Shown: positions 4,375-11,205 of the stretch, piece by piece
Layout: every line of letters begins with the position of its first letter
Numbering within the stretch: the first letter of the stretch is position 1
Virus record (IMG/VR): IMGVR_UViG_3300047562_002398
Span: 1-25,853 of that record
From: a virus
Length of the DNA: 25,853 bases
Reading direction: 5' to 3' (one strand)
Notes under the pieces: model-generated
Told to the model about the DNA's origin: nothing
Seen by the model: the letters and a program-made list of their open reading frames with translations, nothing else
Databases searched by the model: none
Translations under genes and position numbers: made by a program

Positions 4375-4695
4375 TCAAATCCACTCTAATTTTGCTGGAT
4401 GATATCTCTTTTCGTTTGTAATATCTATAATAGATTCCTCAACGGGGTAAATGTTATGTACAATTGATCCTGGATACTGTTTCTGTAATTTTTCTGTTAG
4501 ACTTTGTTTTGTTAAATTTTTAGATTCTGTTTTTAGATGAAGTCTATGGATATTTCCCATCCAAAGAATGTCTGCAACAAATTCTTCACCAACACTTTGT
4601 ATTTGTGATTCTGGAGAACTATTAATATAAAGATTTCCATTGAAATCTCCAGAAATATTTACAGATTCTGATAGAAATTCTTTAAAGGTTTTCAT
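4375..4695 (-). CDS. 106-aa protein with a capsid-targeting-like N-terminus
   Basis: The start is set at ATG 4695: an AAAGGAG ribosome-binding site sits 4 bases upstream, and the ATG overlaps the previous stop as ATGA. A TTG seven codons upstream would place that site inside the gene. The N-terminus MKTFKEFLSE resembles the T4 internal-protein capsid-targeting sequence MKTYQEFIAE, and LSE fits the (L/I)-x-E cleavage rule of the T4 prohead protease gp21. The body (residues 39-80) has a W-x-G beta hairpin followed by a helix ending QYPGS, matching a module near the end of the neighbouring 882-aa protein. No enzyme motif is visible. Packaging into the head as an internal protein is inference. 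Confidence 0.8.
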   Translation of the reverse strand: MKTFKEFLSESVNISGDFNGNLYINSSPESQIQSVGEEFVADILWMGNIHRLHLKTESKNLTKQSLTEKLQKQYPGSIVHNIYPVEESIIDITNEKRYHPAKLEWI

Positions 4696-7340
4696 GAGTC
4701 TCCTTTGCAATTCCAACGACGGCGTGCTTTACAGATTGGTTTATCTGGTGTTTCACTACAATCTATATTATGCATATCTTTTTGTCCTTTAGAGCGACGA
4801 CAAAAACTATTTTGTCTTTCTGCTCTTTTTCCAGTTGGATTTTTTTCAGTTACTGCAGTTTGAAGTTTAGATTTTGGATTTTCTTCTTTATACTTATCGA
4901 CTGTATCTTGACTCATTCCATCAGTTCTATCCTTACGATTTGCTTTTTGCCAATCTTCCACTTGAAGAAACTGCTCACCTGGTTTAATGTCAGAAACATA
5001 AAAAGATTGAACTCTAGAACCTGGATAAACCTTTGAGATTTGGTCTTGAACTTCTTGGCGATTTGGTTTGGTTGTTTGTGGGAAAAATAGTTTCATTGTG
5101 TAATACTTTCCTCTCCAGGTAAGAGTAACTAGAATAATATTTCCTGTCTTCGCTGGAATTCTGACCGATTCTCCCATTGGTTTCACATAATTTTTATCTG
5201 GTCCCGGTTTTGCGGAACTTCCGCCCATTGGTCTTTTTGGGGAACACTCGCAAGGAGATTTGCCGCATACCTCACACAAAATATTTTTCTCTTCTTTTAC
5301 TGATTCCCATCCACCACCTTCTGATTTATATCCTTTTGCTGCCCAACCATTAGCATAAGCAGAATTTCCGGTAATAGTTATAAATCCATTTTGAACCATT
5401 ACCCAAGTATTATTTTCGGTTGTTGGACACCAAACATCTTCAATACTATCATCCTCAATAATTAAATTTTGGGTTGAATGATATTTTTTATTTCTTACAA
5501 TAGTTGCACCAGAAATTGTATCTGTTTTTTCATAAAATGAAACATGATACCCATTTAAATATGCTGATAATAATGTCGCCCAAAAATGATCATCATTTTT
5601 CTGAGTGAAACCAAAAGTATGTCTTTCTTTAATTTTTGTTGATCCTCCTTGATCCCAACCATCATACACAATTGATGACGCCAAATAAATTTCTCTTTGA
5701 TCTTTATTCCACGATAAAACTTTTTCTACCCAATTATCCTTTTTCGACCAATGCTGCTCAAAAAGATTAATATTTGAATCATTATGCAATTCTGAGCAAG
5801 TTACCAATCTCATTCTTTTATGTATATCTTTTGTTTCAACTAAATTGACATTTTGATACTCGTTTCCACTTCTCACTACCCATTTGTGATTTTCTGTTGC
5901 TCTAATACTAAAACCACTTTTTTTATAAATTCTTTTTAACGGAGCTTGCTCATAAAAATTTAAATGTAAAATCGGTTTCCACTCTAAAACATCATTATCA
6001 ATATTATAGGTTAAAATATCTTCTCCAATATTCAATTCATGATAAAATTTTAATCCTTCCCTTGTAATTGCTTGAGATTCTAAAGGAACGCATGGATAAA
6101 CATCAAACTTCGCTTTTGCCTTCGATTTCCACTTCGCCCATAATTTTGGATTAGTTGGTTTGTTCTTTTCTGTAAGAACTTCTGCTTCCATTTCAAGCAG
6201 AATTTTATCTACTATTGAAATTTCTTCTTTTCTTATTGGAGGTAAAGATACTCCTACCATTTTAGCAGTAGTTTGTTGTTCGCCGCCAGTTCCTCTCTGA
6301 GAAAGGGCATCTATTTTTTTTGCTCTTCTTGCTTTTTTTGCATCAGATGATGTATGAGAAATTTCAAAACTTGCTTCACTTACCGGAACGCAATTAGGAA
6401 CCATTTTATTTCCTTTCTTTTTCATCCCCTCTTGCTTATAACCGCAAGGATCTTTTTCTTCATCCATAGATCCTTGAACATCGTGCTCTCCACTGTCAAG
6501 ATAATCTGCTGCAGAATCAATATAATCTGCTGCTTTGGTAATTTTTGATTGAACCCATGCTTCAATATTTCCTTCTCCTTTCATTTTTGATTTAAGGCGT
6601 TTTACTGCCTTTTCAATAGTTGCAAGTTCTGATCTTGCCATTGAGTGCTCATGGTCTGGTTCTGGTTTTTTGGATTCTTTTATTCCGCCAACTGTCACTG
6701 CATCCCACATAGCAGGTCCATAAGAACATTCCATTCTTCTTTCTCTTTTTCTACACATCGGACAATATCTTTCTTCATCGGATTGTTCTTGTATTTTATT
6801 AGAGACCATTTTTGGTTTTCCTCCTTTTCCTGGACGATCTGCTACTGGGTCTTCTTTTCTCTTTCTTCTTACTGCTGCAGCAATTTCGGATTTAGACATC
6901 TTTGCTGCTTTCTCTTTGGAAAGGCATTTTGGTTTAGGACCATCTCCATCATCATTTTCGCCACGAGCACATTTTCCAGTTCTTTCACCTTTGGTATTAT
7001 ATTCATCCCATCCACCACCACCTACACCACCCTCTTCGCCTTTACCAAACCATCTGCGAAGATCTTCATAATATGCAACACGTTGTTTAGAATGCTTTAG
7101 TTCCCCCTTTTCCTTCGCAATCAACTTCTTAGAAAGAGCACCAAAATTAATATCAATTGGATTTTCATCTGGTGTTTTCTTTTTAGGATTATCATAAACA
7201 TCCACATCCCCATCAGCATCACGATCTACAAATTCTACAGATGCGTGATGAACTAATTGTTTTAGATCCAAATTGGGATCTAGTTGATGTTGTTTCCCCT
7301 TTAAATGTGGAGTTTTATGTGAGAACTTTTGATTCTTCAT
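4692..7340 (-). CDS. Lys-rich multi-module phage protein interrupted by an intein (882 aa precursor)
   Basis: The function is unknown. Modules in order: an acidic patch VEFVDRDADGDVDVYD (35-50); a Gly-rich basic segment with two Cys and MSKSEIAAAVRRKRKEDP (about 95-180), like DUF6321-type phage proteins; CPMC with a third Cys (193-205); NIEAWVQSKITKAADYID (258-275), a helix seen in many T4-like phage proteins; a DUF5872-like motif split by the intein (392-416 plus 660-680); CEVCGKSPCEC (689-699), possibly zinc-binding; a beta-helix module ending VYPGS (727-796); and a basic C-terminal Cys module with TEKNPTGKRAERQNSFCRR. It overlaps both neighbours by ATGA, so translation is probably coupled. 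The intein covers residues 417-659, and the spliced product would be 639 aa. The Lys/Arg content and neighbours with capsid-targeting-like ends suggest a nucleic-acid-binding or head-internal protein, which is inference. Confidence 0.88.
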   Translation of the reverse strand: MKNQKFSHKTPHLKGKQHQLDPNLDLKQLVHHASVEFVDRDADGDVDVYDNPKKKTPDENPIDINFGALSKKLIAKEKGELKHSKQRVAYYEDLRRWFGKGEEGGVGGGGWDEYNTKGERTGKCARGENDDGDGPKPKCLSKEKAAKMSKSEIAAAVRRKRKEDPVADRPGKGGKPKMVSNKIQEQSDEERYCPMCRKRERRMECSYGPAMWDAVTVGGIKESKKPEPDHEHSMARSELATIEKAVKRLKSKMKGEGNIEAWVQSKITKAADYIDSAADYLDSGEHDVQGSMDEEKDPCGYKQEGMKKKGNKMVPNCVPVSEASFEISHTSSDAKKARRAKKIDALSQRGTGGEQQTTAKMVGVSLPPIRKEEISIVDKILLEMEAEVLTEKNKPTNPKLWAKWKSKAKAKFDVYPCVPLESQAITREGLKFYHELNIGEDILTYNIDNDVLEWKPILHLNFYEQAPLKRIYKKSGFSIRATENHKWVVRSGNEYQNVNLVETKDIHKRMRLVTCSELHNDSNINLFEQHWSKKDNWVEKVLSWNKDQREIYLASSIVYDGWDQGGSTKIKERHTFGFTQKNDDHFWATLLSAYLNGYHVSFYEKTDTISGATIVRNKKYHSTQNLIIEDDSIEDVWCPTTENNTWVMVQNGFITITGNSAYANGWAAKGYKSEGGGWESVKEEKNILCEVCGKSPCECSPKRPMGGSSAKPGPDKNYVKPMGESVRIPAKTGNIILVTLTWRGKYYTMKLFFPQTTKPNRQEVQDQISKVYPGSRVQSFYVSDIKPGEQFLQVEDWQKANRKDRTDGMSQDTVDKYKEENPKSKLQTAVTEKNPTGKRAERQNSFCRRSKGQKDMHNIDCSETPDKPICKARRRWNCKGDS
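4700..4706 (-). promoter_or_regulatory. Ribosome-binding site that fixes the 106-aa gene start
   Basis: On the minus strand this reads AAAGGAG, followed by ACTC and then ATG 4695. It lies within the last codons of the 882-aa gene. It supports the MKTFKEF start over the upstream TTG. Confidence 0.75.
5364..6092 (-). other. Intein (243 aa) inside a DUF5872-like domain
   Basis: This in-frame protein-splicing element runs from Cys417 to Asn659 of the host protein, with Ser660 as +1 residue. Block A is CVPLESQAITREGLKFYHEL followed by NIGEDILTYN. Block B is RATENHKWVV with the T-x-x-H pair (T482, H485). Block F is DVWCPTTENNTWVMVQNGF (635-653). Block G is ITITGN before Ser. Joining the flanks restores KFDVYP/SAYANGW, the unbroken conserved motif of the DUF5872 family as I know it. 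The middle (about 515-620) is too large for a mini-intein and contains YLASSIVYDGWDQG followed by FGFTQKNDDHFW, which looks like a single, possibly degenerate LAGLIDADG endonuclease unit. The penultimate residue is Gly, not the usual His, and residue -1 is Pro. The identification is confident; splicing and homing activity are untested. Confidence 0.92.
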
Positions 7341-8969: not shown

Positions 8970-10352
8970 TTAAGGCATACCAAAAGGATTTGTTTCAGAA
9001 AAATCAATGATTTGATCTGCTTCTTCCTCTATAACATCATTTTGTGCGTATGGGTTTTTAATATCATCAATATCAATTGTTCTAAGAACTCTACTAGCAC
9101 TACTTGCAGTTCCTACAATGCTCTCCCCAGAAACAAATGAACCAGATACTATAGAAACTTCTAGAACATTAGTTGTTGCATCCCAAGATTTGACTCTTGC
9201 AGTTGTTCCACTTATTGAACCAGTAACAATTTCATTGAAAACATATGTTCCGACATTTTCTCCAAGATCAATGGGCGAATCAATAATAATTGTTGGTGCA
9301 GCAGTATATCCAATTCCAGCATCTATAACACGAATTGATGTTATAGTTCCAGCAGCACTTACTACTGCAAATGCTGTTGCAGTAGTTCCCGTTCCAGGAG
9401 AACTTATAGTAATATTTGGTGATGATGTATAACCAGATCCTCCACTAGTAACTGTTATTATTCCCACAATACCATTTGCAATTTCTGTTGTTGCTGCTGC
9501 TCCAACTCCCCCTCCACCAATAAATGCGACTGATGGTGCAGTAGTATATCCATAACCAGGATTTACCAATTCCACTCCCTGTATTTTATCAGATGCTACT
9601 CCGTTACAATCTACAATTCCCGAAATCATAGTTGCGATTCCAGTTGCAGTTAATCCACCAGATGGAGCAGAAGAAATAGCAACTCTTGGTACTGATGTAT
9701 AACCACTTCCTCTGTCGGTTAAAGTAATTTTTCTTACCCCACCATTTACTATTCCTGTTATGGCGGTTGCTGTAGATGCGGAACCAACGAGAGTGAGAGT
9801 TTGAATATACCCTTGATCTACAGTATTATCATCAATTTCTCCTATAGATGTATCAATAACTTCGTCTTCATATCTAAAGAGTTCACAAGTTAATTGGTAT
9901 ACATAATTTTTTTGAAGTTGATAGAATGGTTTTTCGTGCTCAACATATTTAATTTCAAATAGTCTATCTCCAAGAGGAAAATAAATCAAATCCCCCTCTT
10001 TAGGTCTTGTTGAAAGTTTGATATTTGGGATGTTTTTGATAAGTGGAGATATGTAACTTTCAAATCTTTCTTTGGATATTGTTAAAATTAAATCATCCAT
10101 TTCTTGGATGCCAAATTTTGACATTAGAGTTCCAAGTCCATTGTAACCATCATAAGTATCAACATATGCTTCAATAGGATATGCATTATCAAATTTTGAC
10201 TCTATGACCTCTTTTATAATTGTTTTTTCTGATACATATTGTCTCGGTAGATAATAAACTTCAACGCCATATATTTTCAACTGCTCATTTATTAAGTCTT
10301 GTATCAATCCTTGCTCTGACTTGGAACCTTGTTGAAAAAATGGATTTAACAT
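8970..10352 (-). CDS. 14: Neck (head completion) protein gp14, enlarged by GSGYT repeats
   Basis: With gp13 this protein forms the neck that seals the filled head and receives the tail. The start is set at ATG 10352 (MLNPFFQQGSKSEQ), the usual family beginning; a TTG four codons upstream is possible but gives a non-family N-terminus. Residues 1-170 are the conserved core, including VEVYYLPRQYVSEKTI and EAYVDTYDGYNGLG, and the C-terminus IDFSETNPFGMP is also typical. At 460 aa it is much longer than T4 gp14 (256 aa). The excess is four Gly/Ser-rich beta repeats (about residues 204-361), followed by a YVFNEIVTGSISGTTARV module. It begins 4 bases after the gene 13 stop, so the two are co-transcribed. 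Confidence 0.93.
   Translation of the reverse strand: MLNPFFQQGSKSEQGLIQDLINEQLKIYGVEVYYLPRQYVSEKTIIKEVIESKFDNAYPIEAYVDTYDGYNGLGTLMSKFGIQEMDDLILTISKERFESYISPLIKNIPNIKLSTRPKEGDLIYFPLGDRLFEIKYVEHEKPFYQLQKNYVYQLTCELFRYEDEVIDTSIGEIDDNTVDQGYIQTLTLVGSASTATAITGIVNGGVRKITLTDRGSGYTSVPRVAISSAPSGGLTATGIATMISGIVDCNGVASDKIQGVELVNPGYGYTTAPSVAFIGGGGVGAAATTEIANGIVGIITVTSGGSGYTSSPNITISSPGTGTTATAFAVVSAAGTITSIRVIDAGIGYTAAPTIIIDSPIDLGENVGTYVFNEIVTGSISGTTARVKSWDATTNVLEVSIVSGSFVSGESIVGTASSASRVLRTIDIDDIKNPYAQNDVIEEEADQIIDFSETNPFGMP
9270..9743 (-). repeat. Four tandem GSGYT-type protein repeats in gp14
   Basis: Four diverged copies are centred on TDRGSGYTSVPRVAI, VNPGYGYTTAPSVAF, TSGGSGYTSSPNITI and IDAGIGYTAAPTIII. 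Each has a strand, a G-x-G-Y-T turn and a second strand, with linkers of 15-30 residues. The DNA also repeats: the minus strand shows GGNTATAC-like words at the GYT turn of each copy. Related copies occur in three other structural genes in this window. Confidence 0.8.
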
Positions 10353-10356
10353 ATCC

Positions 10357-11205
10357 TTAACCAATCATATCTAGAGGTGGAAGTTCATAAGTATTGGACA
10401 TCTTCTCCATAATCATATCAATTTCTTTCTGTGCATCATCATATATTTGTCTGCCGTTTAGTTCAACACCTCCAGGAAGTTTTACTCCTTGAAACTTAAT
10501 AAGATTTTGTCCCCATTGACGCTTTATTAAAGCGGTTAGATATGGTTTTAAGAAAGAGTCGTTCCAAACTCTTGTGAAATCATTTGGATCTAATGTTCTA
10601 TAACAGTCAATAATCAAATAGTCATTAACCTTTACACTTCCCCAATCAATATCAAGATATAGTCTATCCATTCTTTGATTGAAACGAATTTGTTTTTGGG
10701 TGGTCAAAAGAAAATCCATATCTTCAAGATATGTTTTAACCATTGCATAAGTTAAAAGTTCTGTAGATCCCCAATAGTAAATATCGTTTAAAAATAGTTG
10801 ATATTTGACACTAAACATATTATTAGTAACAGTGTTCGTTCCGTCAAAATGAAAAACCTTTGTTACTCCAATTACTGAGGGTGGAACCTGCAAATAATTA
10901 CTATTTTCTTTATAGTTGAAAGTTACGGATGAACTTGAAATGTTTGCAGTAGCCGTGCTAGTTACTATTCCTGCAATCGGATCATTTCCGTTTGGCGCTC
11001 TTCCTCTATCAATATCTTCTTGGGTAATTTGATACTTTAAAAACATTTGAGAGACACCATCAAAGTGCCTCTCTTGGAAAAATTGAATAGCATCATCAAC
11101 CAAATCATCAATTTGCTCATCGGCAACATTAATTTCTAAAACTGGCGCACCCAGTTTTCTTTTACAATAATCTATTAATTCTTGTCTTGAAGAAGGTTGC
11201 GCCAT
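10357..11205 (-). CDS. 13: Neck protein gp13
   Basis: This is the head-completion protein that works with gp14 to close the portal vertex before tail joining. At 282 aa it is close to T4 gp13 (309 aa). The N-terminus MAQPSSRQELIDYCKRKLG, then APVLEINVADEQIDDLVDDA and FFQERHFDG, is the hallmark of the T4-like cyanophage family. The C-terminal half keeps DYLIIDCYRTLDPNDFTRVW and FLKPYLTALIKRQWGQNLIK. A short Ser/Thr/Asn-rich loop (about residues 78-100) looks variable. An AGAGGT ribosome-binding site and a late-promoter octamer lie just upstream, and gene 14 follows after 4 bases. The order 13-14-15-16 is that of T4. Confidence 0.95.
   Translation of the reverse strand: MAQPSSRQELIDYCKRKLGAPVLEINVADEQIDDLVDDAIQFFQERHFDGVSQMFLKYQITQEDIDRGRAPNGNDPIAGIVTSTATANISSSSVTFNYKENSNYLQVPPSVIGVTKVFHFDGTNTVTNNMFSVKYQLFLNDIYYWGSTELLTYAMVKTYLEDMDFLLTTQKQIRFNQRMDRLYLDIDWGSVKVNDYLIIDCYRTLDPNDFTRVWNDSFLKPYLTALIKRQWGQNLIKFQGVKLPGGVELNGRQIYDDAQKEIDMIMEKMSNTYELPPLDMIG

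Follow-up and report, generated by a model that had tools for sequence, protein, structure and literature searches.

Inteins would chiefly be expected at the active sites of enzymes that act in replication and packaging. The 25,853-nucleotide viral DNA analysed here (the window; IMG/VR record IMGVR_UViG_3300047562_002398), a contig from a T4-like cyanophage of the Kyanoviridae type, raises the question of whether an intein has settled in a non-enzymatic phage protein, as a first-pass annotation proposed for positions 5364-6092, and how it would splice and move there. Our reading, to which we give a probability of roughly 0.88, is that the segment is a mobile intein in the conserved YP/SAYAN turn of a DUF5872-type domain, self-splicing and homing between phages.

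The host gene occupies positions 4692-7340 on the minus strand (as do all window features given below) and encodes a precursor of 882 residues, which would be 639 residues once spliced. The terS gene lies directly upstream, in a block of head, tail and terminase genes that includes neck, tail and large terminase genes. Counterparts are found at the same place in the isolate cyanophages S-BM3 (SBM3_00185, T4-GC_119), Sf-CH8 and S-SRM01. The interrupted domain consists of an N-terminal half (6093-6158, ending in KAKFDVYP) and a C-terminal half (5310-5363, beginning with SAYANGWAAKGYKSEGGG), both located by the profile match of the joined flanks and by motif alignment, and the C terminus of the protein is a DUF6321 domain (4713-4934; E 2e-8, above the gathering score). 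The host protein resembles a mosaic of small modules that reappear in other phages in varying order, comprising DUF6321, CPxC zinc-finger-like stretches and a GGGWDxYNTKGERxGKCAR module; the S-SRM01 counterpart has DUF5661. Elsewhere in the window, the neck protein (8970-10364; head closure Hc2, gp14-like) has an insertion made up of GSGYT-type repeats, with further matches to baseplate and fibre families. Beside terL, a Cys-rich ORF of 76 residues (1158-1388; CRVCGEIKNLIEGFY...CKECTVKR) looks like an endonuclease VII/HNH-type protein; genes for endonuclease VII and HNH also occur in the corresponding block of S-SRM01.

The intein (5364-6092) comprises precursor residues 417-659, which are 243 residues from Cys1 (Cys417, codon 6090-6092) to Asn243 (Asn659, codon 5364-5366), with Ser at +1 and with KFDVYP before and SAYANGW after it. 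The N-terminal splicing region (intein residues 1-100, 5793-6092) contains blocks A and B, the latter reading TENH, and the C-terminal splicing region (residues 213-243, 5364-5456) contains block F (VWCPTTENNTWVMVQNGF) and block G, ending in TGN/S. In a tblastn search of the whole protein against 50,697 phage records, exactly residues 417-659 align with PolA of the phi92 group (31-34% identity, E 1e-22 to 1e-26). The aligned stretch of Escherichia phage PaulScherrer PolA, 34% identical from end to end, is annotated by its depositors as an intein. The deposited PaulScherrer feature (L002:2504-3238, MZ501100) begins a codon too late, just past Cys1, and its last residue is the Cys of the C-extein. 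Four records named as Campylobacter phages (MG065639, MG065645, MG065656 and MG065689) carry a PolA intein that scores identically to the coliphage ones, which suggests that their hosts or the records are mislabelled.

Curated profiles respond weakly to the window protein, with E 0.0066 and 16.7 bits (cut-off 35.8) for Pfam Intein_splicing (PF14890) and E 0.006 and 17.6 bits (cut-off 24.5) for TIGR01445. An intein call from curated profiles alone was rejected since both scores fall under the cut-off, which we read as the detection limit for a divergent phage family. The AlphaFold (AF2) model of the intein, built from 50 relatives (pLDDT 95), aligns with solved inteins at Z 14-18, so that the intein identity first assigned from motifs is borne out by the predicted HINT fold. 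AceL NrdHF, a class 3 intein, is the best structural match (Z 18.1, 2.0 A over 143 residues), Ssp DnaB gives Z 17.2, and the endonuclease-bearing TliVMA aligns over 231 residues; the top Z values of class 1 and class 3 inteins are tied, and structural rank does not tell the two classes apart. A nucleophile at position 1, the block B Thr and His, the terminal Asn and Cys, Ser or Thr at +1 are present in all 63 inteins of the family that were compared.

The insertion is in frame, and the joined exteins form a protein that is known without the segment. In L134 the same protein occurs uninterrupted, with 73.5% identity to residues 1-635 of the spliced form, and the intein-less L138, L116, L165 and S-BM3 agree with it; the empty sites read straight through at the DNA level, and the flanks rejoin precisely at YP/SAYAN. 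Relatives of the flanking domain confirmed in IMG/VR number at least about 590 for subtype A and at least about 570 for subtype B. A scan for DVYP followed by CVP returned 43 stretches, 30 of them with a DUF5872-type left flank and 25 of these with a complete intein in the fetched DNA, against at least 120 matches to the corresponding intein-less pattern; thus, the intein is the minority state. A search of the window revealed no further copy of DUF5872, and none of the 43 fetched stretches has an empty copy beside the occupied one. The intein-less orthologues rule out a universal domain of the host family. It is scarcely credible that the segment is an ordinary or Hint-type processing domain that is not removed: the weak profile scores would fit such a domain, but hundreds of copies lack the segment, every member has the terminal Asn and a Ser, Cys or Thr at +1, its homologues in PolA are annotated as inteins, and L134, L138 and S-BM3 refute it. 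The first-pass call is therefore confirmed by the end-to-end PolA match, the fold and the empty sites: positions 5364-6092 encode a real intein, the splicing of which is predicted.

The host domain had been described as DUF5872-like, and its joined flanks do resemble Pfam DUF5872 (PF19197), although their score (E 1.1e-4, 23.2 bits) is below the gathering score of 27.5 bits, as is that of the L007-type joined flanks (E 6.8e-6, 27.1 bits). The match covers positions 1-39 of the 116 in the profile, so that the phage domain spans the first third only, and the whole spliced protein has no DUF5872 match in Pfam at E < 1. Full membership was rejected on these grounds, and the profile scores point to a domain that is related to DUF5872 rather than a formal member. 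Other records of DUF5872 come from algal giant viruses (PMC12085832). A BFVD structure search returned mostly DUF5872-like or unnamed viral proteins and, weakly, one giant virus DUF5872 protein. The domain model (pLDDT 91.5) consists of a helix pair joined by the YPSAYA turn plus two short strands, with the insertion point at the start of the second helix, and it matches no solved structure in the PDB. DUF5872-type copies stand alone (a 57-residue protein in phage C72C1) or lie inside larger proteins. The strong constraint claimed for the insertion site is upheld, as the V, P, S, A and Y of V-x-P-S-A-Y do not vary among 60 copies without an intein, drawn from both subtypes. Such conservation may reflect an important role for DUF5872; contact with nucleic acid or protein is a guess from its basic make-up.

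The PolA inteins of Stephanstirmvirinae coliphages (phi92 and the PaulScherrer group) are like the window intein from end to end (34% identity) and share essentially its length (245 residues), Cys1, the W-C-T residues, the TGN end and a single LAGLIDADG repeat. However, they are inserted in PolA with Cys at +1, whereas the window intein is inserted in DUF5872 with Ser at +1 and falls in a distinct clade with good support. The PolA inteins of Escherichia phage nieznany and Pseudomonas phage KIL1 and the portal intein of Gordonia phage Woes also have Cys1 with W-C-T, the TGN end and the same HINT blocks, but they contain two LAGLIDADG repeats and 324-354 residues, while the window family lacks the first repeat. 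The first 23 relatives found were all inserted in the DUF5872 motif, and a broader scan added PolA, metallophosphoesterase and other hosts. All DUF5872-site inteins found form one clade, the 42 rows lying on one side of a 99/94 branch in a tree confined to the window intein and these relatives. Three positions are occupied: YP/SAYAN (position a, the window intein), PSAYA/SGA, that is YPSAYA/S (position b, clade support 100/99), and YPSAY/SN (position c, clade support 97/88, two long-branched rows). At position c the usual Ala is replaced by Ser, for which the Pro-to-Ser co-conversion at MCM-d provides a precedent, and haloarchaeal MCM has neighbouring intein sites within one gene (PMC10643990). 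Neighbouring sites within five residues in one related intein clade were not found in the literature searched. The proteins that carry DUF5872-site inteins vary in architecture.

The window intein is 84, 82 and 83% identical to those of L004, L005 and L006, respectively, against 53, 43 and 49% for the whole exteins, a contrast that is exaggerated by low-complexity, fast-evolving exteins but with which the neighbouring genes agree (63, 55 and 61% for terS). Similarly, the L007 intein is 74% identical while its structural neighbours are 40-41% identical. The intein-free L134 and L138 are closer to the window, at 87% for terS and 87-88% for gp15. Since inteins 82-84% identical reside in distant hosts and closer phages are intein-free, vertical descent does not fit the distribution, which points to horizontal spread or to repeated gain and loss.

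The signature residues of the splicing regions, after Cys1, are Thr66, His69 and Trp71 (B:7, B:10 and B:12; Trp71 codon 5880-5882), Cys222 (F:4, 5427-5429) and Thr241 (G:5, 5370-5372), followed by Gly242 and Asn243. All 63 inteins have Cys1, Thr B:7, His B:10, Cys F:4, Thr G:5 and Asn G:7, and 62 have Trp B:12, the F:4 Cys having been partly preselected by the search pattern VWCP; the isolates nieznany, KIL1 and Woes, found through tblastn matches confined to the N-terminal part, likewise combine Cys1 with W, C and T. The window intein has the complete WCT triad of class 3 (W71, C222 and T241), and its spacing (H to W +2, C to N +21, T to N +2) is that of the class 3 intein Msm DnaB-1 (PMC5222942). 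A class 3 start, in which Cys222 rather than Cys1 attacks the N-terminal bond, would account for the full triad and its spacing, but we consider it distinctly improbable. Class 3 inteins such as mycobacterial DnaB and AceL NrdHF have W at B:12 (Met in AceL), Cys at F:4 and Thr at G:5 with the spacing of the window intein, but they are described as lacking the first nucleophile, with no Cys, Ser or Thr at position 1, and their definition excludes the pairing of Cys1 with WCT seen here (PMC3196547, PMC5050341, PMC7664689). Class 3 inteins have been counted at about 1,700 (PMC7891396). In addition, the F:4 Cys occurs in class 1 inteins (PMC4031507, PMC3196547). The penultimate residue of the window intein is Gly where His is usual; the Bethlehem phage intein, also with a penultimate Gly, splices, and changing this Gly to His made the precursor accumulate (PMC5050341). 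Cys1 is invariant across the 63 inteins, down to about 25% identity, which favours a class 1 start over a class 3 start, and by sequence the window intein appears to pair class 1 chemistry with all three residues of the class 3 triad. Tori and Perler reportedly noted in 2011 that Ser1 or Cys1 occurs in a small number of WCT inteins, and no priority is claimed for the combination.

The half-size LAGLIDADG-like endonuclease domain (intein residues about 118-212, 5457-5741) contains the single motif YLASSIVYDG. In the relatives with two repeats (those of nieznany, KIL1 and Woes) it is the second that aligns with this domain, the first having no counterpart here; the phi92-type inteins have likewise kept only the second. 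The LAGLIDADG_3 match in relatives is weak (E 0.04-0.08). We infer a homodimeric nuclease, the activity of which is uncertain because there is one repeat where those relatives have two. The endonuclease region is lost in L025:5001-5603 (201 residues), L090:4001-4489 (163 residues) and L092:4001-4585 (195 residues), which lie on separate branches of the tree. Both intein domains are under purifying selection; dN/dS of the endonuclease region is 0.04-0.13 (about 0.06), a rough estimate as synonymous sites are near saturation (dS about 1). Splicing may have been kept and homing lost; the half-size domain would then be a remnant, retained for stabilising the splicing domain or for tuning splicing, and old transfers by general phage recombination would explain the distribution. 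This possibility, which we regard as unlikely though deserving of weight, is consistent with the survival of the second repeat alone and with the three losses, which mark the region as dispensable. However, dN/dS between close relatives is lowest or nearly lowest in the half-domain (0.04-0.06, against 0.08-0.17 in the N-terminal splicing region), the motif acid is retained in 60 of 63 inteins (Asp in 57, Glu in 3) with the other three having lost the region, and the patchy distribution across phages that are 55-88% similar suggests ongoing movement.

In the preferred reading of a mobile, self-splicing intein, Cys1 would attack the Pro416-Cys417 bond in class 1 fashion, helped by Thr66, His69 and the block F Cys222. 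The Ser at +1 would take over the chain and Asn243 would cyclise, joining the exteins into the 639-residue protein. Homing would depend on the half-size LAGLIDADG domain which, probably acting as a homodimer, would cleave DUF5872 copies that lack the intein at their conserved DNA; recombination would then copy the intein into the empty site. The chemistry, the dimerisation and the cutting in this scheme are all inferred. One ancestor from the phage PolA/portal-type intein family would have colonised the DUF5872 motif, and its descendants would have come to occupy three adjacent positions in proteins with little in common beyond that motif.

The proposal of a new intein home in a non-enzymatic phage protein stands for the host family, as DUF5872 was not found as an intein home in the literature or the isolate phage records searched. 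Its novelty is tempered because non-enzymatic hosts were already known among portal proteins (PMC5050341), that of Gordonia phage Woes included. The colonisation of three positions by one clade, the half-size endonuclease, the pairing of Cys1 with WCT and the horizontal spread go beyond the first-pass annotation. The origin of class 3 inteins is disputed, with one study arguing for a phage progenitor (PMC3196547) and another against direct descent from class 1 (PMC7664689). In a more speculative and rather improbable joint reading, the family, with a functional Cys1 beside a complete class 3 active site, would be a surviving relative of the presumed phage progenitor of class 3, able to use either splicing route, and its half-size endonuclease a homodimer recognising a motif common to otherwise unrelated phage proteins. 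The invariant co-occurrence of Cys1 and the class 3 triad is relevant to the dispute over descent from class 1 and makes the question testable. The settlement of one clade at three positions of one short motif constitutes a natural experiment on insertion-site shifts, by a clade that specialises in a domain of roughly 50 residues scattered among many phage proteins. The SAYAN motif also emerges as a constrained element whose function merits attention.
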